Source: an uncultured Hyphomicrobiales bacterium (GTDB lineage Bacteria > Pseudomonadota > Alphaproteobacteria > Rhizobiales > Beijerinckiaceae). Taken from it: 39,380 nt of DNA. The notes under the pieces are model-generated. The model had not been told where the DNA came from and did no database searches. It saw only the letters and a list, made by a program, of their open reading frames with translations. Location: positions 1 to 39,380 of the forward strand of contig CAIOVE010000097.1 of the NCBI GenBank assembly GCA_903861645.1, read 5' to 3'. Shown here piece after piece: positions 1-23,880 of the stretch. The position numbers and the translations under genes are program-made. The first letter of the stretch is position 1, and each line of letters starts with the position of its first letter.

Positions 1-138
1 ATCGAGCGATGCTTCAACAAACTCAAGAATGCCCGGCGCTTCGCGACGAGATACGACAAGCTCGCCGAAACGTTCGGAGGCTTCGTTCAAATCGCCTGCA
101 TCCGGCTATGGATGCGCTACTTTGTCAACGAGACCTAG
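1..138 (+). mobile_element. IS5-type transposase, C-terminal fragment
   Basis: The frame is open from the first base and stops at TAG 136-138, giving 45 residues. It contains IERCFNKLKNARR and ends near LWMRYFVNET. The E-R-x-F-x-x-L-K-x-x-R-R pattern followed by R-Y-D-K is the C-terminal part of DDE transposases of the IS5 group, containing the last catalytic Glu. The rest lies left of the window, so it cannot be judged whether the whole element is intact. I could not delimit its terminal inverted repeat. Right after the stop the sequence becomes coding for an unrelated repeat protein, so the element appears to have inserted into or replaced the start of that gene. Confidence 0.8.
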
Positions 139-140
139 GC

Positions 141-1314
141 GAGGATGGCACCATTCTGGGATTAAACATCAACCTTACCGCTGGCGAACAGTTTTATAAT
201 TTCTCGACAAATACAATAACGGCGGCTTCGGGTTTCAACGCCATCTATCATATGCCCGTCAATCAAACAGTGATTGGCAACGGGGCGCTCGATACCTATG
301 TGTTTGGCTCATACACGCTCAGTCAGTTGACCATTACGCGCAACGCGGATGGCACCGTGACCGTTGCCGCGCCCGATGCGACAGACACATTAAGCCGCGT
401 CCAGATGATCCAGGATTATACTGGCGCGCGGAAATTTATTGGTCATTCCACATCCGACTTCAGCGGCGACGGCAATTCTGACGTTCTGCTGGAAAACACC
501 ACCAGCGGTCAGATCGGCACGTGGGAGATCAGCAACAATACGCCGGTTTGGGCGAGCTTCTCGACCGAAGCGGCAGGCTGGCACGCGGCGGGCAGCGGCG
601 ATTTCAACGGCGACGGCGTGTCGGACATCCTGCTTGAAAATTCGTCGACGGGGGCCGTCGGCACGTGGGAGATCACCAACAACACGCCAACATGGGCCTA
701 CTTCTCCGCCGAGGCGACAGGCTGGCATGTGGCCGGAGTCGGCGACTTCAACAACGATGGACGATCCGATGTTCTCCTTGAAAATTCTTCAACGGGCGTG
801 GTGGGCACGTGGGAGATCACCAGCAACACGCCAACATGGGCCTACTTCTCCGCCGAGGCGACAGGTTGGCACGTGGCGGGTGTCGGCGACTTCAACGGCG
901 ATGGCCAATCCGACGTTCTCCTTGAAAACTCTTCAACGGGCGTGGTGGGCATGGGAGATCACCAACAACACGCCAACATGGGCCTACTTCTCCGCCGAGG
1001 CCACGGGTTGGCACGTGGCCGGCGTCGGCGATTTCAATGGCGATGGACGCTCGGATGTTCTCCTTGAAAACTCCACGAACGGCATCGTTGGCGCGTGGGA
1101 GATCACCAACAATACGCCAAGCTGGGTCTACTTCTCCGCCGAGGCCACGGGTTGGCACGTGACGAGCGTCGGCGATTACAACGCCGATGGTAAGTCGGAC
1201 ATCCTGCTATCCAACACGTCCACGGGTCAGGTCGGCGAATGGCTCATCAACAATAATACGCCAACATGGCAAGGGCTCTCCACGATCGCCGCCGGCTGGC
1301 ACGCCGTGGGCTGA
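141..1314 (+). pseudogene. Truncated, frameshifted FG-GAP/VCBS-like repeat protein
   Basis: Coding sequence in frame 3 starts just after the transposase stop with no credible start codon. About 100 residues are followed by six tandem repeats of 48 residues, each opening with G-D-F-N-G-D-G-x-S-D and carrying LLENSSTG and VGTWEITNNTPTW. The Asp-rich loops resemble calcium-binding FG-GAP/VCBS modules of large secreted or surface proteins. In repeat 4, at about 948-956, two bases are missing compared with the sister repeats (GGGCATGGGAG against GGGCACGTGGGAG). The frame therefore moves to frame 1, where repeats 4b-6 continue to TGA 1312-1314. The gene lost its N-terminus to the transposase junction and also carries a frameshift. 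A sequencing error or phase variation are alternatives for the shift. The original function cannot be told beyond a likely extracellular repeat protein. Confidence 0.8.
453..1311 (+). repeat. Six tandem 144-bp coding repeats
   Basis: Repeats start at 453, 597, 741, 885, 1027 and 1171. The period is 144 bp, except that the fourth unit is 142 bp because of the 2-bp deletion. Units 2 to 5 are nearly identical at the DNA level, while the first and last have diverged, as expected of an array growing by unequal exchange in its centre. Confidence 0.9.
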
Positions 1315-1461: not shown

Positions 1462-2937
1462 ATGGGAGCCGACATCGACATCGGCGCGACCGCCGCCGGC
1501 GCGCCCGCGACGCTGGATCTCGAGGAACTGCTCGCCACGCGCCTGCTCGTGCAGGGCAATTCGGGGTCGGGCAAGTCGCATCTGCTGCGCCGGTTGCTGG
1601 AGCAAAGCGCCGGCCGCGTGCAGCAGATCGTCATTGATCCGGAAGGCGACTACGTGTCGCTGGCCGCGCGCTACGGGCATATCGTGCTCGATGCCGCCGA
1701 ATGCGCGCATGAACTGGCGACGATCGCGGCGCGCGCGCGCCAGCATCGTGTTTCCGTCGTGCTCAATCTCGAGGGGCTCGACGTCGACGGCCAGTTGCGG
1801 GCGGCGTCCGTTTTCCTCAACGCCCTGTTCGAGTGCGAGCGCGACTATTGGTTTCCCGCGCTCGTGGTGGTCGACGAGGCGCAGCTCTTCGCGCCCGCCG
1901 CCGCGGCCGACGCTTCAGACGACGCGCGACGGGCGAGCCTGGCGGCGATGACCAACCTGATGTGCCGCGGCCGCAAGCGCGGCCTCGCTGGCGTGATCGC
2001 GACGCAGCGACTGGCGAAGCTCGCCAAGAACGTCGCCGCCGAGGCGTCGAATTTCCTCATGGGGCGGACGTTTCTCGATATCGACATGGCGCGCGCCGCC
2101 GATCTGCTGGGCATGGAGCGTCGGCAGGCGGAGGCCTTTCGCGATTTGCAACGCGGCGCCTTCATCGGCCTTGGACCAGCCATCGCGCGCCGACCGCTGC
2201 GCATCGCGGTCGGGGCCGTTGAAACGGCGGATCGCGGCGCGGCGCCCCGCCTCATGCCCCTGCCCGAGGCCGCCGGGCCCGAAGACCTGCAAGACCTGTT
2301 GTTCGCGCGGATGGAAGAGCCCGCGCCGCCTCGCCGCCCGCGACCGCCGCGCGCGGACAGCGCCCAGACCATTCTGGAGCGCATCGACCGCGGCGCGCCG
2401 GCGCCCTTTGTCGCCGCGCCCGCCCCCGAACTGTCCGACGAGGAGCGCGAAGCCGCCATCGAGGCGATCATCGCGCAGATGGCGGCGGACGCCGGCGCCG
2501 CTTTTCAGCCCGCCGCGACGCTGCATCGCGATTTTCTCGTGCGCTGCCGCATCCGCCGCCTCGGGCCGCACGCGCCCGATGTCGCGGCGTTCGCCGAGCG
2601 GATGACCGTGGAGCGCGCGCGCCGCGCCTATCCAGATGGCGTCGAGGCGGACGAATGGATGCGCGCGATCGATGTCGCGCGCCGCCTGCCGCGCGATCTG
2701 CTTGGCGTCTATCTGTTGATTGGCCGGGCGGCGCTCGCTGGCGAGCCTTGTCCGATGGACGACGAAATCGCCCGGTTCTTCGGCAGCCACTCGCCGGGGC
2801 GGGCGCGGCGCGCGTTGGGGCAACTCGAACAGATCGAGGCCATCGTGACCCGTTCAGACGCGCCAAACCGACGCGTTATCGCCCTGCCCGACCTTGATCG
2901 GGAAACCGCGCTTGCCCGGGTCGAAGCGGAAACCTGA
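1462..2937 (+). CDS. HerA/DUF87-family ATP-binding protein
   Basis: This is a 491-residue P-loop ATPase of the HerA/FtsK-like group (DUF87 helicase domain). Walker A is GNSGSGKS at residues 32-39. Walker B is ALVVVDEAQLF around 133-143, with the acidic pair D138-E139. A conserved-looking IDPEGDY segment sits at 58-64, and GVIATQRLAKL resembles the sensor region. The C-terminal 200 residues are Ala/Pro/Arg-rich with no domain I recognise. The start is ATG 1462, preceded by GAGGAG at good spacing. The frame is open further upstream to 1327, but that stretch has no ribosome site and a non-coding look. HerA proteins are hexameric DNA translocases, often paired with NurA nuclease. No nurA is nearby, so a stand-alone role is inferred and the substrate is unknown. 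Confidence 0.85.
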   Translation: MGADIDIGATAAGAPATLDLEELLATRLLVQGNSGSGKSHLLRRLLEQSAGRVQQIVIDPEGDYVSLAARYGHIVLDAAECAHELATIAARARQHRVSVVLNLEGLDVDGQLRAASVFLNALFECERDYWFPALVVVDEAQLFAPAAAADASDDARRASLAAMTNLMCRGRKRGLAGVIATQRLAKLAKNVAAEASNFLMGRTFLDIDMARAADLLGMERRQAEAFRDLQRGAFIGLGPAIARRPLRIAVGAVETADRGAAPRLMPLPEAAGPEDLQDLLFARMEEPAPPRRPRPPRADSAQTILERIDRGAPAPFVAAPAPELSDEEREAAIEAIIAQMAADAGAAFQPAATLHRDFLVRCRIRRLGPHAPDVAAFAERMTVERARRAYPDGVEADEWMRAIDVARRLPRDLLGVYLLIGRAALAGEPCPMDDEIARFFGSHSPGRARRALGQLEQIEAIVTRSDAPNRRVIALPDLDRETALARVEAET

Positions 2938-2946
2938 GCGTGGTCC

Positions 2947-3252
2947 CTATCGACCCGACTGGAAAAAGCGCCTGAGCCACGCCACCGCGACCGAACCCAC
3001 GACGACCGCGGCGACAACGGGCGCTAGAATCAGCAACGCGCCGGCGAACGCAAAAAGCAAAAGCCCGAGGAGAACGAGAAAACCGACCACCCAGAAGGCG
3101 AGGCGAACGGGACCGACCTGGATGACGCGCATGCGGGCGAACGTCTGGTCCGGGCGATACGCGGACTCCCTGCCCGCGGGCGGCAAAATCTCTGGCTCGA
3201 ATTTTGGCGCTTCGGGCGGCTTGCCGGGGAACTCATCGGTCATGCGGGACAT
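2947..3252 (-). CDS. Small two-pass membrane protein, unknown function
   Basis: The 101-residue product has a polar Pro-rich N-terminus (about residues 1-48). Two adjacent hydrophobic helices follow at about 50-70 and 72-92 (LAFWVVGFLVLLGLLLF, then LLILAPVVAAVVVG). It closes with a basic RRFFQSGR tail that suggests a cytoplasmic C-terminus. I do not recognise a named family. It is convergent with the HerA-like gene, with 9 bp between the stops. The start could be the first Met (3252) or the second (3243); no strong ribosome site distinguishes them. Confidence 0.7.
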   Translation of the reverse strand: MSRMTDEFPGKPPEAPKFEPEILPPAGRESAYRPDQTFARMRVIQVGPVRLAFWVVGFLVLLGLLLFAFAGALLILAPVVAAVVVGSVAVAWLRRFFQSGR

Positions 3253-3347
3253 CTGTTGGGATGAGGGGACCGAAAGACCCTAGCGCTTTCGCGGCGCCGC
3301 GTCTGCGTATTCGACGCGCAACGCGGTCGGCGCGGCTTCGATTGATT

Positions 3348-3509
3348 TCAAAGGTTGGAGGATATTTTCGAAAAGTCGGCGGAAATCTTGGTGCCGACGC
3401 GCGTCACGGCGGAAATGATGACGACGCTGATCAAACCCGCGATCAGGCCATATTCAATCGCCGTCGCGCCGGATTCATCCCGCAGGAACCGGGCCAACAG
3501 GATTTTCAT
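3348..3509 (-). CDS. Flp-type (type IVb) pilin
   Basis: A 53-residue ORF beginning MKILLARFLRDESGATAIEY is the classic Flp/Fap pilin leader. It has a short basic N-terminus, a Gly before the cleavage point (DESG/ATAIEY), Glu at position 5 of the mature form, then a 20-residue hydrophobic helix (GLIAGLISVVIISAV) and a short polar tail. Such prepilins are cleaved by a CpaA/TadV prepilin peptidase and assembled by the Tad/Cpa secretion machine for adhesion. No cpa/tad genes are in the window, so this is an orphan pilin locus here, dependent on machinery elsewhere. The gene is below usual ORF-length cutoffs. The family call is firm; whether it forms the major pilus cannot be said. Confidence 0.92.
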   Translation of the reverse strand: MKILLARFLRDESGATAIEYGLIAGLISVVIISAVTRVGTKISADFSKISSNL

Positions 3510-3655
3510 CGTTCAATCTCCGCTCGTTCGACCGAGTGCCGCGCGCCGAGGCAGGCCGCCATGTCCCGATACGCTTATACCGCGGGCGGACTGGAGAAAT
3601 GGTTAAGTTGATAACTTGATCGACAGCGACGCCATTAACCAATGGGCGCGGATTC

Positions 3656-3692
3656 AAAACGGCCCGGCGGTACATCCGCGCCGGGCCGTTTT
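3656..3692. terminator. Bidirectional intrinsic terminator, repeat copy 1
   Basis: A 14-bp perfect stem (AAAACGGCCCGGCG with CGCCGGGCCGTTTT) encloses a 9-nt loop GTACATCCG. The flanking A and T runs make it work on both strands. It lies downstream of the minus-strand flavin monooxygenase (stop 3788), which it probably ends. The central 27 bases recur exactly at 6123-6149. Confidence 0.85.
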
Positions 3693-3787
3693 TACGGCGT
3701 GGCCGGGGGGAGCCGCCGCCTCGCGGACACGACTAAACGCGTTTTGCGCCAGTTCGATGACACAACGCGCGATGAGCCGAGGACTGG

Positions 3788-4792
3788 TTAATTCCCGCGC
3801 GCGAGCGGCATGACCGCCTCGGCGAATATTTCCATCCCTTCGCGAAACGGATGGAATTGCAGCATCAGCAAATCGATTCCGGCGTCGGCGTAGCGGCGGA
3901 TTCGCTCCGCGACGCGTTGTGGCGAACCGACGAGCCCGGCGCCCAGCGCGCGGGCGGCGACCGCCGCGCTGGCCGCGTTGCCGGCAAGCGCCGCCGCGCG
4001 CGCCTCCGCCCGCGCATCCGTTTCGTCAACAATCGCCAGCGTGCTGATTCCATAGCCGAGGGCGCGTCCGTGTCGCGCGGCGCCCTGGCGCATGTCGGCG
4101 ATATCGGCGGCGACCTTGCGGGCGTTGGCCTCGTAGTTTTCCAGTCCCGGCGGGTGGTAGGCGAACCATGTGTGGCAACGGCGCGCGACAATGTCCTTGC
4201 CCGCGTCGGCGCTGCTGGCGGCGTAAATCGGCGGCGCGGGCCGCCGCAGGGGCCGCAAGGCCATGCCGCCGGCCTCGATCCGGAAGAATTCGCCTTCGAA
4301 GCGCGCGTCCTCGCGCGTCCAAAGGGCATCGATCATCGCGATGAATTCATCCATGCGGCGGTAGCGTCCGCCGGCCTCGTCGAGCCACGCGCCGTTGCCG
4401 TAGAATCCGAATTCCTCGGGCCGATTGCCGGGAACCACGTTGAGCGCGAAGCGACCGCCGCTGAGCCGATCCAGCGAGGCGCCCATCTTGGCCACGACCT
4501 GCGGGTTGATCATGCCGGGATGAATCGCCGCCATGATCTCGATGCGCGACGTCAGAACGGCCAACGCCGAGGCAACGACCCAGGCCTCGAGGTCGCGCGC
4601 CACGAACCGCTCGGCGACCAGCGTGATGTCGAAGCCGAGCTCCTCCGCCCGCCGGACCGAGTCGAGCGCGAATCGAAACGAGCGGTCGGTTGCTCCGCCC
4701 TGCCCCGCCGTCCCAAGATCGGCGAGGGCGGCGTTGATTTCGGGCTCGGGCTGCATGACATGCGGCAGGGGCGTCCATAATCCAAAGCGCAT
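3788..4792 (-). CDS. LLM-class FMN-dependent monooxygenase (SsuD/SfnG-like)
   Basis: The 334-residue protein has the bacterial luciferase-like TIM-barrel signatures. These are MRFGLWTPL at the N-terminus, RRAEELGFD near 50-60, AIHPGMINP around 110, the hallmark RFALNVVPGNRPEEF, ERYRR-like RYRRMDEF, and PIYAASSADAGKD. These match the alkanesulfonate/dimethylsulfone monooxygenase branch, which uses reduced FMN from a partner reductase to oxidise organosulfur compounds. No reductase or transporter gene is adjacent, so the substrate is open. ATG 4792 is chosen because MRFGLW is the family start and GGGGGAA precedes it; the frame stays open upstream without homology. A terminator follows at 3656-3692. 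Confidence 0.85.
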   Translation of the reverse strand: MRFGLWTPLPHVMQPEPEINAALADLGTAGQGGATDRSFRFALDSVRRAEELGFDITLVAERFVARDLEAWVVASALAVLTSRIEIMAAIHPGMINPQVVAKMGASLDRLSGGRFALNVVPGNRPEEFGFYGNGAWLDEAGGRYRRMDEFIAMIDALWTREDARFEGEFFRIEAGGMALRPLRRPAPPIYAASSADAGKDIVARRCHTWFAYHPPGLENYEANARKVAADIADMRQGAARHGRALGYGISTLAIVDETDARAEARAAALAGNAASAAVAARALGAGLVGSPQRVAERIRRYADAGIDLLMLQFHPFREGMEIFAEAVMPLARGN

Positions 4793-4955
4793 GTTTCCCC
4801 CAACGAACGCACGAAACGTCAGGATAAACGCCGCCCGCGCTGGCGCAAGACGGCGCGGGCCGCGCAGCCCGAAACAATCGGGCCATCCGCCTTGCAAGGA
4901 TCGGGGATGCCCTTTATATGTCCGCCCGCTCGCGACCGATGTGTCGCGCATGCCC

Positions 4956-5031
4956 GCGCCCATCGTCTAGCGGTCTAGGACGTCGCCCTTTCACGGCGAA
5001 AACAGGGGTTCGATTCCCCTTGGGCGCGCCA
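4956..5031 (+). tRNA. tRNA-Glu (UUC), CCA encoded
   Basis: The acceptor stem GCGCCCA (4956-4962) pairs with TGGGCGC (5021-5027), followed by discriminator G and encoded CCA 5029-5031. The anticodon stem TCGCC/GGCGA carries the loop CTTTCAC with anticodon TTC at 4990-4992. The T arm reads AGGGG-TTCGATT-CCCCT. All four arms fold. Confidence 0.97.
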
Positions 5032-5073
5032 TTCCCAAAATTGCTTCGAAAACGACCGTCCGCGTCGCCCGAA

Positions 5074-5322
5074 CTATCGCTCGCCGGGATGACCCGCGGC
5101 CATCATCTCGCCATGCGCGAGCAAGCCTTCGAAACGGCCGCGCACGAAGCCCGTGGACACAGCCGCGCGCAGCACCTCCATATCGCGCTCCAGAAAACCA
5201 TTGGCGACGATCAGGGCGCGAACCGCCGCCCGTGCGTCGCCGTCGCATCGGGCGATCACGTGATCAACGGATGACTCAAGATCATCAGGCGGCGCGGAGA
5301 TGTCTTCGGCGAGGGCGGACAC
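5074..5322 (-). CDS. Hypothetical protein, second gene of SOS-type cassette
   Basis: An 82-residue acidic-to-neutral helical protein, with the frame open further upstream. I chose GTG 5322 because GAAAGG lies 7 bases before it and the product then begins 29 bp after the stop of the upstream gene at 5352. The core DGDARAAVRALIVANGFLE suggests a small helical domain. I do not recognise a named family. It has no signal peptide or membrane helix, so it is probably cytoplasmic. Spacing and orientation make it co-transcribed with 5352-5627 from the LexA-boxed promoter at 5657-5685. Function unknown. Confidence 0.7.
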   Translation of the reverse strand: MSALAEDISAPPDDLESSVDHVIARCDGDARAAVRALIVANGFLERDMEVLRAAVSTGFVRGRFEGLLAHGEMMAAGHPGER

Positions 5323-5351: not shown

Positions 5352-5627
5352 CTATCCGCGGCGACGGCCGGGCGCGGCGCGACGCCCGGCCTTCCCGGCC
5401 AAATGGGCGCGCAGCGCCCGCCCCGCCTCCTCGTAAGCATCGACAATGCATTCGAACGCCCGACGCTCCGCCGTCGGACGAGGCTCGCGGCCGTCGTATT
5501 GAATAATCGCCGCCCGCTCCTCCCACGCGTCACGAGCGTCGTCCGGGAAAAGGCTCAGGACCGAACGCCAATCCGGCGGAATGACAAGGGAACCCGCGCT
5601 TTCGTTTCGGACGATGGAAAGGGCCAT
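5352..5627 (-). CDS. Hypothetical protein, first gene of SOS-type cassette
   Basis: The 91-residue product carries the stretch WEERAAIIQYDGREPRPTAE. I have the impression of similar ERAAI-x-x-x-DG-G-x-x-R-x-x-AE motifs in small proteins of mobile elements and primase/helicase-like proteins, but this is a memory-based likeness only. The tail is Arg/Gly/Ala-rich (GKAGRRAAPGRRRG) and could bind nucleic acid. ATG 5627 is preferred because the longer start at 5666 would fall inside the promoter -10/LexA region. GCGAGG sits upstream of 5627. It is the first gene of a two-gene minus-strand unit whose promoter carries a GAAC-N7-GAAC LexA box, so induction by DNA damage is predicted. Function unknown. 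Confidence 0.7.
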   Translation of the reverse strand: MALSIVRNESAGSLVIPPDWRSVLSLFPDDARDAWEERAAIIQYDGREPRPTAERRAFECIVDAYEEAGRALRAHLAGKAGRRAAPGRRRG

Positions 5628-5648: not shown

Positions 5649-5663
5649 GTTCTTGTTATGTTC
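5649..5663 (-). promoter_or_regulatory. LexA (SOS) box of alphaproteobacterial type
   Basis: On the minus strand this reads GAACATAACAAGAAC, an exact GAAC-N7-GAAC direct repeat, the form established for LexA in Alphaproteobacteria. It covers the -10 region of the promoter at 5657-5685, the position expected for a repressor. Confidence 0.75.
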
Positions 5664-12392: not shown

Positions 12393-13697
12393 ATGGAAGA
12401 CACAACGACCACGCCAACGATTCGCGACGGGACGCCTCTAGTGGCCGCCCGACCGTTCGGGCCGTTTGAATGGATGATCGCGCTGCGCTTCCTGCGCGGC
12501 CGGCGGGCGCGTCGGCCTTTCTCGGCCTTCGCGGTCGTCTGTTTCAGCGGCGTCATGCTGAGCGTTGCGACGCTGATCGTCGTCATGTCCGTGATGAACG
12601 GCTTCCACATCGAGTTGCTGAACAAGATCATCGGCATCAACGGCCATGCCTTTCTGCAAGGCGTCGACACGCCGCTGACCGATTACGCCGATGTCACCAA
12701 GCGCGTCGAGGATACGCCGGGCGTCGTCATGGCGATTCCGATGATCGAGGCCGCGGCCGGCGTCTCCTCCACCTATCAACAGACGGGCGGCCTCGTGCGC
12801 GGCATCGGCGGCGCGGATCTGACGCGCCTGCCGGGCATCGGCGCGAATGTGCGCCTTGGAACGCTCGACGGATTTGACGAAGGCGGCGGCGTCGCCATCG
12901 GCGCGAAAATGGCGGAGAATCTCGCTGTACGGATCGGCGACACGATTTCGATTCTCACGGCCAAGGGCGCTTCTACGCCCTTCGGCGTGACGCCGCGCAT
13001 CAAGGCCTACCCCGTCGTCGCGATCTTCCAGATCGGCGTGTCAGAATTCGACAATCTGTTCGTCTACATGCCGCTGAAGGAGGCGCAGGCCTTCTTCAAC
13101 AAGGACGGCGAGGCGAGCGTCATAGAAGTCTTCGTCAAGAATCCCGACGACATGGACGCGATGCGCGACAAGCTGGACTTCGCCATCAAGCGGCCGATGA
13201 TCATCACCGACTGGCGTCAGCGCAACCGCTCGTTTTTCGACGCGCTGGCGATCGAGCGCAACGTGATGTTCCTGATTCTCTCGATGATGGTCATCGTGGC
13301 GGCGCTCAACATCATTTCCGGCCTGATCATGCTGGTGAAGGACAAGGGCCGCGCCATCGCGATCCTGCGCACCATGGGCGCGACGCGCGGCGCGATCATG
13401 CGCGTCTTCCTGCTGACCGGCTGCATCGTCGGCGTCACCGGCACGGCGGCGGGCCTTTTGCTCGGCGTGCTGATCGCGCGCAACGTCGAGAACCTCCGCC
13501 AGTTCGTCAACGCGACGTTTCATATCAACGCGTTCGATCCGAACTTTTATCTGCTGAGCCGTCTGCCCTCGGTCATCTCGACAAGCGACGTGCTACTCGT
13601 CGGCGGGCTGGCGCTGGGCCTCGCGCTGGGCGCGACGATCTATCCGTCATGGCGCGCCGCCAAGCTCGATCCCGTCGAAGCCTTGCGGTACGAATGA
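12393..13697 (+). CDS. lolC: Lipoprotein-releasing ABC permease LolC/LolE
   Basis: This 434-residue inner-membrane permease extracts outer-membrane lipoproteins for transfer to LolA. Its topology matches the MacB/FtsX-type Lol permease. One helix lies near residues 43-65 ([19 protein letters not shown]), then a large periplasmic domain (about 70-275), then three helices at about 285-310, 340-365 and 395-415. [20 protein letters not shown] is a LolC/E hallmark, and it ends in the usual [10 protein letters not shown]. Only one permease gene is present, so it may act as a homodimer, as in other Alphaproteobacteria. The start has GGGGAC just upstream. Its stop overlaps the lolD start. Confidence 0.93.
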
Positions 13698-14392
13698 TGA
13701 GCGAAAAGACCGCCTATCCCGCGCTCTGGTTGCATGACGTCTCCCGCGCCTATCAGCAGGGCGACACGCCGCTGGTCATTCTCGACAAGGCCGAACTGGC
13801 GCTCTGGCCCGGCCAATCCGTGGCGCTTGTCGCGCCCTCCGGCGCCGGTAAATCAACGCTGCTGCATATCGCCGGCCTGCTGGAAAAACCTGACTCCGGC
13901 GATGTCTTCGTCAACGGCGTTTCGACCGCCGGCATGGATGATGGCGCGCGCGCGGCGGCGCGGCGCGTCGACATCGGCTTCGTCTATCAGTTTCATCATC
14001 TGCTGCCGGAATTCACCGCGCTCGAAAACGTCGTGCTGCCGCAGATGATCGCGGGACTTTCGCGCGCGGAAGCGAAAGTCCGCGCGGCGCAGTTGCTCGA
14101 ATATCTTGGGTTGGGCCACCGTCTCGCCCACCGCCCCGCCGAGCTTTCGGGCGGCGAGCAGCAACGCGTCGCCATCGCGCGCGCCGTCGCCAATGGTCCG
14201 CGCGTGCTGCTGGCGGACGAACCCACCGGCAATCTCGACCCGCGCACCGCCGATCAGGTGTTCACCGCCCTGACCGATCTCGTGCGCGCCTCCAGCCTCG
14301 CCGCGTTGATCGTGACCCACAACATGGAGATCGCGGCGCGCATGGACCGCCGCGTCACGCTGCGCGAGGGAGCCGTGGTCGAACTCGCCTGA
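13694..14392 (+). CDS. lolD: Lipoprotein-releasing ABC ATPase LolD
   Basis: The 232-residue ATPase powers the LolC/E permease. Walker A is [11 protein letters not shown] (about residues 50-58). The Q-loop lies at [17 protein letters not shown], which is typical of LolD. The signature [14 protein letters not shown] is at about 155, and Walker B is [12 protein letters not shown], with H-loop IVTHN. ATG 13694 overlaps the lolC stop in an ATGA arrangement, showing translational coupling; a second ATG follows at 13697. In many relatives dnaE comes next, but here a LexA-boxed 32-codon gene follows. Confidence 0.95.
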
Positions 14393-14452: not shown

Positions 14453-14481
14453 TTGAAAAAAGAACAAATTTAGAACATTAT
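14453..14481 (+). promoter_or_regulatory. SOS promoter of the 32-aa membrane protein
   Basis: TTGAAA (14453-14458), a 17-bp spacer and CATTAT (14476-14481) form a good sigma-70 promoter. The LexA box occupies the spacer. The predicted transcript starts near 14488, leaving a leader of about 25 nt. Confidence 0.7.
14462..14476 (+). promoter_or_regulatory. LexA (SOS) box before the 32-aa membrane protein
   Basis: GAACAAATTTAGAAC is an exact GAAC-N7-GAAC direct repeat, the alphaproteobacterial LexA site. It is placed between -35 and -10, where bound LexA would block RNA polymerase. Confidence 0.8.
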
Positions 14482-14513
14482 AGGCTCATAAAGCGAATTT
14501 GCAGGAGGTTCCC

Positions 14514-14612
14514 ATGTTCCGCTCTGTTATTGGCCAGGCTTTTGAACTGGCGTCGCTGGGCTGTTTTCTCACCATGATCGCCTTCGTCGCGAAGGCGGTG
14601 GGCGGCGCCTGA
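14514..14612 (+). CDS. 32-aa SOS-type inner-membrane protein, SidA-like
   Basis: The 32-codon ORF starts with ATG 14514 behind a perfect AGGAGG (14503-14508, 5-nt spacing) and ends at TGA 14610-14612. The product begins MFRSVIGQAFELASLGCFLT and continues with a hydrophobic stretch to VGGA, giving one membrane helix at about residues 9-29 and a short basic N-terminus. It is the first gene after a promoter holding a LexA box. In Caulobacter, SidA is a 29-residue LexA-controlled inner-membrane protein that stops division through FtsW/FtsN. Size, topology, control and the place after lolD all fit a SidA-type inhibitor. I have not aligned the sequences, so the equivalence is inferred. It is too short for standard gene callers. 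Confidence 0.8.
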   Translation: MFRSVIGQAFELASLGCFLTMIAFVAKAVGGA

Positions 14613-14678: not shown

Positions 14679-15527
14679 ATGATCAGGCTTGTGTGCGGCG
14701 CGCTTGCCGCGATGCTGATGGCGGCGCCGGCGCGCGCGGCGGAGCCGCTCAGGCCACAAACCGCGCAACTGCCGGGCGTCGCCCTGCGCTATGTCGATTC
14801 GGGCGGCGCTGGCGCGCCGGTCATTCTGCTCCACGCCAACACCGGCACGATAGAAAGCTGGTCGGCGCAAATCGACGCACTCCGCGCGGCGTCTTTTCGG
14901 GTCATCGCCTTCGACAGGCGCGGATGGGGCGGCAGCCAGCCAGACCCCGCGACCGGTCCGCAACCCGGCACGGTGGCGGGCGATCTCGACGCTCTCGCCG
15001 ACCACCTCAAGCTTGATCGATTCGATCTCGTGGGCGTGGCGGGCGGTGGCTTTGTCGCGCTCGATTACGCCGCGTGGAAACCCGAACGCATCGGCAGAAT
15101 GATCGTCGCGGCGACGTCGGGCCAACTCGCCGAAAAGCAAATGAAGGAGTTTTCGGCGCGCATCGAATTCGAGGGTTTTCGCGCCCTGCCGCCGGTGCAT
15201 CGCGAGGTCGGCCCCTCCTATCGCGGCGGCAATCCGGAAGGCGTCAAACGCTGGATGGAAATCGAGGAACACGCGCAGCAAAAGGGCGCGCCCAATCAAC
15301 CGCTGCGGACGCCCAACACCTACGCGAAGCTGGAAACGATCGCGACCCCGACGCTTGTTCTGGCTGGCGACGCCGACATGGTATCGCCGCCGGAGATGAT
15401 GCGCATCTGGTCGCGCCATCTCAAGCACGCGACCTTCGATTTCGTGCCGGACGCCGGCCATTCGATCGCGTGGGAACAGCCCGAGGCCTTCAACGCGCGG
15501 ATGCTCGCGTTTCTCGCGCGCCGCTGA
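14679..15527 (+). CDS. Exported alpha/beta-hydrolase-fold protein lacking serine nucleophile
   Basis: The 282-residue protein has a signal peptide (MIRLVCGALAAMLMAAPARA, cleavage about residue 21) and an alpha/beta-hydrolase domain. The oxyanion segment is VILLHANTGT and the strand FRVIAFDRRGWGGS is conserved. The acidic residue region is VLAGDADMVSPPE and the catalytic-type His is in DAGHSIAWEQPEAF. The nucleophile elbow reads LVGVAGGGFVALDYA instead of LVGHSMGG, so Ala121 stands where Ser is expected. It is therefore probably not a standard esterase; a binding or other enzymatic role is possible. It starts 66 bp after the 32-aa SOS-type gene on the same strand, so it may be read from the same promoter. 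Confidence 0.85.
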   Translation: MIRLVCGALAAMLMAAPARAAEPLRPQTAQLPGVALRYVDSGGAGAPVILLHANTGTIESWSAQIDALRAASFRVIAFDRRGWGGSQPDPATGPQPGTVAGDLDALADHLKLDRFDLVGVAGGGFVALDYAAWKPERIGRMIVAATSGQLAEKQMKEFSARIEFEGFRALPPVHREVGPSYRGGNPEGVKRWMEIEEHAQQKGAPNQPLRTPNTYAKLETIATPTLVLAGDADMVSPPEMMRIWSRHLKHATFDFVPDAGHSIAWEQPEAFNARMLAFLARR

Positions 15528-23215: not shown

Positions 23216-23731
23216 TCAGAACGGAATGTCGTCGTCCATCGGCGCGGGCGCGCGACCGCCACCCGCCGGAGCCGGACGCTTTTCCATCGGCGACTTGCGG
23301 CCAAAACCACCGCCGCCACCGCCACCGCCGCCTTCGTAGCCAACCGAGGAATAACCGCCGCCCTCCTCGGACATGGCGCCCTCGCCGCGACGATCAAGCA
23401 TCTGCAATTCGCCACGGAAACGCTGCAACACGACCTCGGTCGCCTTGCGCTGGTTGCCGTCCTTGTCGGTGTATTCGCGGGTCTGGAGCTGACCCTCGAT
23501 GTAAACCTTCGAGCCTTTCTTGAGATATTGCTCGGCGACCTTGCCGAGGTTCTCGTTCCAGATGACGACGTTATGCCACTCGGTCTTTTCCTTGCGTTCG
23601 CCGGACGCCTTGTCGCGCCAGGTCTCGCTGGTGGCGACGCTGAAGCTGACGACGGGGTCGCCATTGCCCGTGCGACGGGTTTCCGGATCGCGACCGAGGT
23701 TGCCGACCAGAATGACTTTGTTGACGCTCAT
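23216..23731 (-). CDS. ssb: Single-stranded DNA-binding protein
   Basis: The 171-residue protein starts with the SSB OB-fold sequence MSVNKVILVGNLGRDPETRR. It continues with FSVATSETWRDKASGERKEKTEWHNV, VYIEGQLQTREYTDKDG and a Gly-rich flexible linker. The conserved acidic tip MDDDIPF recruits repair and replication partners. A LexA box lies 135 bp upstream (23866-23880), so induction during the SOS response is expected, beside basal expression. The CDS is complete and of normal length. Confidence 0.97.
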   Translation of the reverse strand: MSVNKVILVGNLGRDPETRRTGNGDPVVSFSVATSETWRDKASGERKEKTEWHNVVIWNENLGKVAEQYLKKGSKVYIEGQLQTREYTDKDGNQRKATEVVLQRFRGELQMLDRRGEGAMSEEGGGYSSVGYEGGGGGGGGGFGRKSPMEKRPAPAGGGRAPAPMDDDIPF

Positions 23732-23865: not shown

Positions 23866-23880
23866 GTTCTTTTTTTGTTC
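23866..23880 (-). promoter_or_regulatory. LexA (SOS) box upstream of ssb
   Basis: The plus strand reads GTTCTTTTTTTGTTC, an exact GTTC-N7-GTTC direct repeat. On the minus strand a -35-like TTGCGA (23883-23888) lies just before it and an AT-rich AAATAG after it at 17 bp. It is followed by about 135 bp of leader to the ssb start. Confidence 0.7.

Follow-up and report, generated by a model that had tools for sequence, protein, structure and literature searches.

The window, as we call the whole stretch of 39,380 nucleotides from an uncultured Hyphomicrobiales bacterium that was analysed here, carries directly behind lolD a 32-codon open reading frame (ORF) headed by a LexA-type box. It is likely that this ORF is an orthologue of Caulobacter SidA and that its product would act as a LexA-switched division inhibitor that holds FtsW/FtsI/FtsN inactive.

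Organization of the sidA-like locus

In the window, lolC (TIGR02212, 442 bits, above the cut-off of that model) precedes lolD, which occupies positions 13694 to 14392 on the plus strand and matches the LolD model TIGR02211 with an E value of 1.4e-74 and 250 bits, under its 308-bit cut-off. A putative LexA-type operator, an exact match to GAAC-N7-GAAC (GAACAAATTTAGAAC; 14462 to 14476, plus strand), starts 69 bp past the lolD stop (14392). This box overlaps a sigma-70-like promoter (14453 to 14481, plus strand) that is made up of TTGAAA (14453 to 14458), a 17-bp spacer, and CATTAT (14476 to 14481), has 9 of 12 consensus bases, and is the sole promoter-like site between 14380 and 14700 (mean in shuffles, 0.1). 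The ribosome binding site AGGAGG (14503 to 14508, plus strand) is followed by the sidA-like gene (14514 to 14612, plus strand), whose 32 codons run from an ATG at 14514 to a stop that ends at 14612. Promoter, box, AGGAGG, and ORF all lie at the positions given in an earlier reading made from the letters alone (the sequence-only reading), except that the box is not wholly within the spacer, as had been described there, since its last base is the first base of the -10 element.

The encoded 32-amino-acid protein has one predicted transmembrane helix; the AlphaFold2 model, built with 23 aligned sequences, has a single helix over residues 2 to 30 (mean pLDDT, 92). No Pfam or NCBIfam model recognised the protein, no SulA domain was found in it (Pfam, E up to 1), and a plasmid search with the peptide gave no match. 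An alpha/beta hydrolase gene (14679 to 15527, plus strand; PF00561, 85 bits) begins 66 bp downstream of the ORF, and its product, the start of which resembles a signal sequence by eye, is apparently exported. At the far left of the window (9 to 1314), frames rich in FG-GAP-like repeats, as read by eye, run on in a different frame, as a frameshift or an assembly error would produce.

Background rate of the LexA-type box

Mononucleotide shuffling of the 121-bp gap between lolD and the ORF produced an exact box in 104 of 20,000 cases (about 1 in 190), and boxes with at most one mismatch were not in excess across the window (28 found versus 32 expected). The genome to which the window belongs holds 126 exact copies of GAAC-N7-GAAC, versus 70 of the reversed control pattern. 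Taken alone, the box is weak to modest evidence. None of the 32 exact control boxes from the same genome (L001 to L030) was followed by a one-helix micro-ORF. The motif itself looks like the LexA operator of this genome, since exact copies precede both lexA and ssb: one lies 121 bp before a match to the LexA DNA-binding domain, and another (GAACAAAAAAAGAAC; 23866 to 23880, minus strand) lies upstream of ssb (23216 to 23731, minus strand) and serves as a control for the motif within the window. The window also contains a second small gene with a LexA-type box, in which an exact box (GAACATAACAAGAAC; 5649 to 5663, minus strand) stands directly before a 91-codon ORF (5352 to 5627, minus strand) that has no Pfam match at E up to 1.

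Conservation of the micro-ORF and its box

With the 32-amino-acid query, matches (E up to 10) were obtained in 60 of 199 genomes from the window's family. Thirty family loci were fetched, and 27 were accepted, the window itself (L031) included; L047, L053, and L055, which lie in longer frames and have no box, were rejected as false hits. All 27 accepted loci have a box within 250 bp upstream of the ORF (21 exact, 6 with one mismatch), and identity to the window protein in alignment A2 ranges from 10 to 53%. A profile of 22 members (A1) was then used across the order and gave matches (E up to 1) in 217 of 297 genomes, with many partial matches in long frames. This search was judged on its best 30 loci, among which L061 repeats the window and L062 repeats L051; 25 of the 30 have an exact box, 3 have a box with one mismatch, L087 has none, and L070 was unreadable at the assumed position. 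The same profile gave no convincing match outside the order in 385 genomes of the class. Sequence similarity alone thus stops at the order, and gene order was therefore used to reach other orders.

Selection on the 32 codons shows in a dN that is below dS: the two values were 0.138 and 0.922 against L213, 0.585 and 1.487 against G139, and 0.48 and 0.972 against G028; dS was saturated in the comparison of the window ORF with G991. A promoter pair of at least 9/12 overlapping the box was found at 19 of 46 loci (the window included), versus 6 of 2300 random anchors. A single promoter common to all loci is not claimed, since only these 19 of 46 reach 9/12, and seven of the eight genomes of the Caulobacter genus described below have a pair of 7/12 or less or no pair. 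At L033, L044, L045, and L049, two exact boxes lie 11 bp apart upstream of the ORF, and the neighbouring boxes share a half-site. Conservation of the ORF in related genomes, on which the sequence-only reading had staked its claim beforehand, was thus found in 27 of the 30 fetched family loci, all of them boxed, and the pairing of a LexA-type box with the ORF held up in the family, in the order, and at the lolD/dnaE loci described below. At the level of sequence, this joint conservation is decisive evidence that the element is real.

The sidA interval of Caulobacter

Caulobacter genomes were picked with a CtrA query, and the genus so identified (g452; CtrA 97 to 99% identical) is the one that we take to be Caulobacter. 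Each of the eight g452 genomes that were read has a 29-codon ORF between lolD and dnaE. The box before it is exact (GAACATCTTGTGAAC) in five, and G925, G951, and G942 have only a box with one mismatch. In G956, the product of this ORF matches the NCBIfam model NF033228, "cell division inhibitor SidA," over 29 of 29 positions (E value, 2.2e-20), and an inosine-uridine nucleoside hydrolase gene adjoins it. This neighbour agrees with published numbering, in which sidA is CCNA_02004 (PMC11034885) and the nucleoside hydrolase is CCNA_02005 (PMC3667746). The SidA match and the fit of the neighbour together indicate that the interval between lolD and dnaE is the sidA interval.

Distribution of the ORF between lolD and dnaE

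The DNA downstream of lolD was read at 80 alphaproteobacterial loci (the window and 79 others; G193 was dropped, as it has no true LolD). The scan rule called for a box, a ribosome binding site, and an ORF of 22 to 60 codons with a hydrophobic stretch within 900 bp before a dnaE match. At 55 of the 80 loci, dnaE fell inside the stretch read. A boxed one-helix micro-ORF stands just before dnaE at 38 of these 55 loci (19 of 29 family codes) when the box must be exact and at 44 (20 of 29 family codes) when one mismatch is allowed, and the median distance from the ORF stop to the dnaE match is 130 bp. Elsewhere, the window ORF aside, the scan gave one match (in G226) in 920,062 bases over both strands. 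Three of the 11 loci that the rule missed have a SidA-like ORF by eye: G546, with two exact boxes; G461, with a degenerate box; and G368, seen as L088. Eight of the 55 loci have no such ORF just before dnaE by the rule (G226, G237, G199, G495, G497, G511, G522, and G534), and in the last seven of these, none was seen by eye in the 420 bp before dnaE. At the G226 locus (L149), a boxed one-helix ORF of different sequence lies at about 1085 to 1212 from the lolD start, some 1.6 kb before dnaE; it is possibly a replaced or diverged sidA.

The sample of 80 genomes is biased, in that 28 are from the window's family and a further 10, from the order's other families, were known beforehand to have the ORF. 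In the remaining sample, the rule picked out the ORF at 10 of 11 dnaE loci from Caulobacteraceae (11 of 11 if G546, read by eye, is counted), at 7 of 10 from the order's other families, and at 9 of 14 from families elsewhere in the class. Where lolD is about 2 to 13 kb away (G115, G090, G018, and G233), the ORF still stands before dnaE, and at the 24 other lolD loci, which have no dnaE in the stretch read (some end at contig ends), no such ORF was found by the rule. The partner of the ORF is therefore dnaE more than lolD. The search for small ORFs behind lolD proposed in the sequence-only reading did recover relatives in the lolD-dnaE interval.

Within 1.5-kb flanks, the ORF is followed by dnaE at 17 accepted family loci out of 27 and at 29 of the 30 order loci; in the window, only lolD is present. 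At nine of the family loci (L033, L039, L040, L041, L045, L052, L054, L056, and L060), both genes are missing from these flanks. Stretches of 5.5 to 10 kb, read for six of them, contained no dnaE and no LolD-like match above 35% identity. These six wider stretches (L204 to L209, from G118, G072, G138, G055, G154, and G167) carry the boxed ORF away from both genes. A Pfam scan of one raw frame at one locus without lolD and dnaE gave only a weak NUDIX match below the cut-off. Loci with neither neighbour indicate that the ORF has also moved elsewhere, its box included. The order lolD...sidA-dnaE probably goes back to an ancestor of a large part of the Alphaproteobacteria.

Relationship of the window protein to SidA

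An alignment with Caulobacter SidA had been suggested in the sequence-only reading, and it succeeded at the level of profiles: a set of 9 Caulobacteraceae sequences (A3) and a set of 23 Hyphomicrobiales sequences (A4) were aligned by hhalign over 25 ungapped columns with an E value of 2.3e-5 and a probability of 76. As a control, 644 unrelated membrane segments (cleaned set) were scored on the Hyphomicrobiales core profile. The number of controls scoring as high was 0 for G836 and G896; 1 each for G966, G961, G925, G951, and G867; 2 for G546; 4 for G937; and 15 for G956. The G956 SidA alone is therefore weak on this profile, and the Caulobacteraceae sequence of G836 both passes the SidA model and outscores all 644 controls.

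The SidA model NF033228 did not match the window protein and did not exceed its 35-bit cut-off in any of 199 genomes of the order; the Caulobacter vibrioides control passed. The one sub-threshold match of the order in these 199 genomes was in a 404-codon frame of G332 (E value, 0.004), and a Hyphomicrobiales member, G274, gave a sub-threshold match with an E value of 0.067. Divergence is the most likely reason why the curated model misses the window ORF. A wider SidA-like family can be proposed on the basis of profile similarity, a single helix of about 30 residues, the GAAC-N7-GAAC box, and a place after lolD and just before dnaE. The window gene shares all of these features, with moderate profile similarity, apart from the place just before dnaE. 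It is a probable member of this family, and since the SidA model does not match it, we file it outside the curated SidA equivalog.

The sequence-only reading had gone no further than a SidA-type functional counterpart in a different order. Since SidA and the relatives of the window ORF occupy the same interval and their profiles are related, the window ORF is probably an orthologue of SidA, which goes beyond that claim. A shared locus is no proof of shared function.

Rearrangement around the window gene and the downstream hydrolase

In the window's genome, dnaE lies on a different contig (C67), and the 1.5 kb upstream of it contains no exact box on the dnaE strand. It stands there behind a 138-codon ORF whose product resembles a PIN-domain (VapC) protein and near a guaA-like gene (both by eye). 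In L211 and L213 (about 1680 to 5140), dnaE is on the opposite strand, upstream of lolC, unlike the usual lolD...sidA-dnaE order. Judged from these arrangements, the window's lineage probably kept lolD and lost the linkage to dnaE. Behind lolD in L211, whose LolC is the most similar of eight named loci, there was no SidA-like ORF, and L217 (Roseiarcus fermentans) and L218 had neither a SidA-like ORF by the rule nor a dnaE match in the stretch around lolD. The host probably belongs to the Beijerinckiaceae, and Roseiarcus fermentans is among the relatives of its LolC.

The succession of ORF and hydrolase recurs in L213, where the box has one mismatch, and in L220 (G991), where it is exact, with hydrolases 76 to 79% identical, and the linkage is therefore older than one genome. 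No such ORF was found by the rule at nine other hydrolase homologues of the genus (L221 to L229). No terminator-like site was found between the ORF and the hydrolase gene, and one inside the ORF was discarded as being at chance level. The sequence-only reading had proposed a unit with the hydrolase; the repeated order in L213 and L220 speaks for that proposal, and L221 to L229, together with dnaE as the usual downstream gene, speak against it. The hydrolase gene is a lineage-specific neighbour that is perhaps co-transcribed with the sidA-like ORF.

Alternative explanations

A chance ORF behind a chance box would be in keeping with the 126 copies of the motif in the genome and with the shuffle rate of about 1 in 190 in the gap, but ORF and box are conserved together, none of the 32 control boxes has such an ORF, and dN is below dS, so that this explanation is extremely unlikely. 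It has also to be considered that the LexA-controlled promoter serves mainly to drive the next gene, i.e., dnaE in many genomes and the hydrolase here, with the micro-ORF as a leader or minor product. The short distances to the next gene (a median of 130 bp from the ORF stop to the dnaE match and 66 bp to the hydrolase in the window) would suit such a promoter. However, the peptide is conserved with dN below dS and has its own ribosome binding site, the ORF is still boxed where the next gene differs, and the Caulobacter micro-ORF is itself a known inhibitor (PMC4211646); we consider this explanation very unlikely.

The window protein could also be an SOS-induced small membrane peptide that disturbs the membrane and makes no contact with the divisome, in the manner of TisB or DinQ. 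Those E. coli proteins are SOS-induced, membrane-disturbing peptides; they are LexA regulated, hydrophobic, and similar in size to the window protein, and TisB has an antisense RNA. The common size class and LexA-type control favour this possibility, as does the fact that no residue held in common with SidA proves FtsW binding. DinQ is described as an SOS-regulated, single-helix toxic peptide that likewise has an antisense RNA (PMC3567139). On the other side, the relatives of the window ORF lie at the SidA locus, its profile is related to that of SidA, and tRNA is the sole Rfam family in the window at gathering scores, so that no known antisense RNA is present there. On balance, a peptide of the TisB or DinQ type is unlikely.

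Proposed function

Under the preferred explanation, that of a SidA orthologue, LexA would occupy 14462 to 14476, overlapping the -35 and -10 elements, and keep the gene off. DNA damage would lead to RecA-driven cleavage of LexA and free the promoter, and the strong ribosome binding site would then allow the 32-amino-acid, single-helix protein to be made. This protein would enter the inner membrane and keep the late divisome complex FtsW/FtsI/FtsN inactive, as SidA does, and septation would be held back until repair. LexA binding and induction by damage are what we infer from the operator and the promoter-like site; the FtsW/FtsN target and the block of division are suggested by the kinship with SidA. 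The window's genome does have an ftsW gene, between murD- and murG-like genes as read by eye, and its product is the sole FtsW/RodA-type protein found there (PF01098). SidA inhibits division via FtsW and FtsN, and suppressors map to FtsW and FtsI (PMC4211646); a 2026 paper places SidA on helix 7 of FtsW in a model that does not have high confidence (PMC13396833). By analogy, the window protein may act on the divisome in the same way.

It is also conceivable, although quite unlikely in our estimate, that one LexA-controlled promoter serves both ancestral sidA and dnaE, so that read-through raises the polymerase together with the brake, and that in the window this promoter has been re-coupled to the exported hydrolase. 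Were that so, septation would be tied to the state of the replication fork, and the window's lineage would have an SOS-inducible envelope enzyme.

Comparison with known division inhibitors and implications

The window protein resembles SidA in size (32 versus 29 amino acids), in its one hydrophobic helix, in the LexA-type box in the promoter region, in its place after lolD, and in its related profile. It differs in that the SidA model misses it, in that dnaE is not adjacent in its genome, and in its core (LALVSVVGF, versus ELASLGCF in SidA). YneA of Bacillus and SosA of Staphylococcus are longer proteins than that of the window, and YneA has a LysM domain, of which the window protein, having no Pfam match, shows none. 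Both are likewise SOS-induced membrane division inhibitors, and YneA interacts with FtsW (PMC13396833). DidA of Caulobacter is also a small single-helix division inhibitor that acts on the FtsW/I/N complex, but it has 71 amino acids and is damage induced independently of SOS (PMC4211646). In the portions of that article available to us, SidA is described for Caulobacter only, and SulA is stated to lack wide conservation outside the gammaproteobacteria (PMC4211646). The available parts of the open-access literature, a scope that leaves aside the 2011 SidA paper, yielded no report of SidA outside Caulobacter.

If the SidA-like reading is true, many Hyphomicrobiales and other alphaproteobacterial families would use SidA-like proteins encoded before dnaE as their SOS division brake, and this class, which includes nitrogen-fixing symbionts and methylotrophs, may have one common overlooked DNA damage checkpoint. 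Its length of about 30 codons and its place outside the curated model would account for the gene having been missed. The dnaE flank would then be a ready handle for finding SidA-like genes, the sequence diversity in alignment A2 would offer a route to mapping the residues that bind FtsW, and what halts division after DNA damage in these bacteria would become directly testable.
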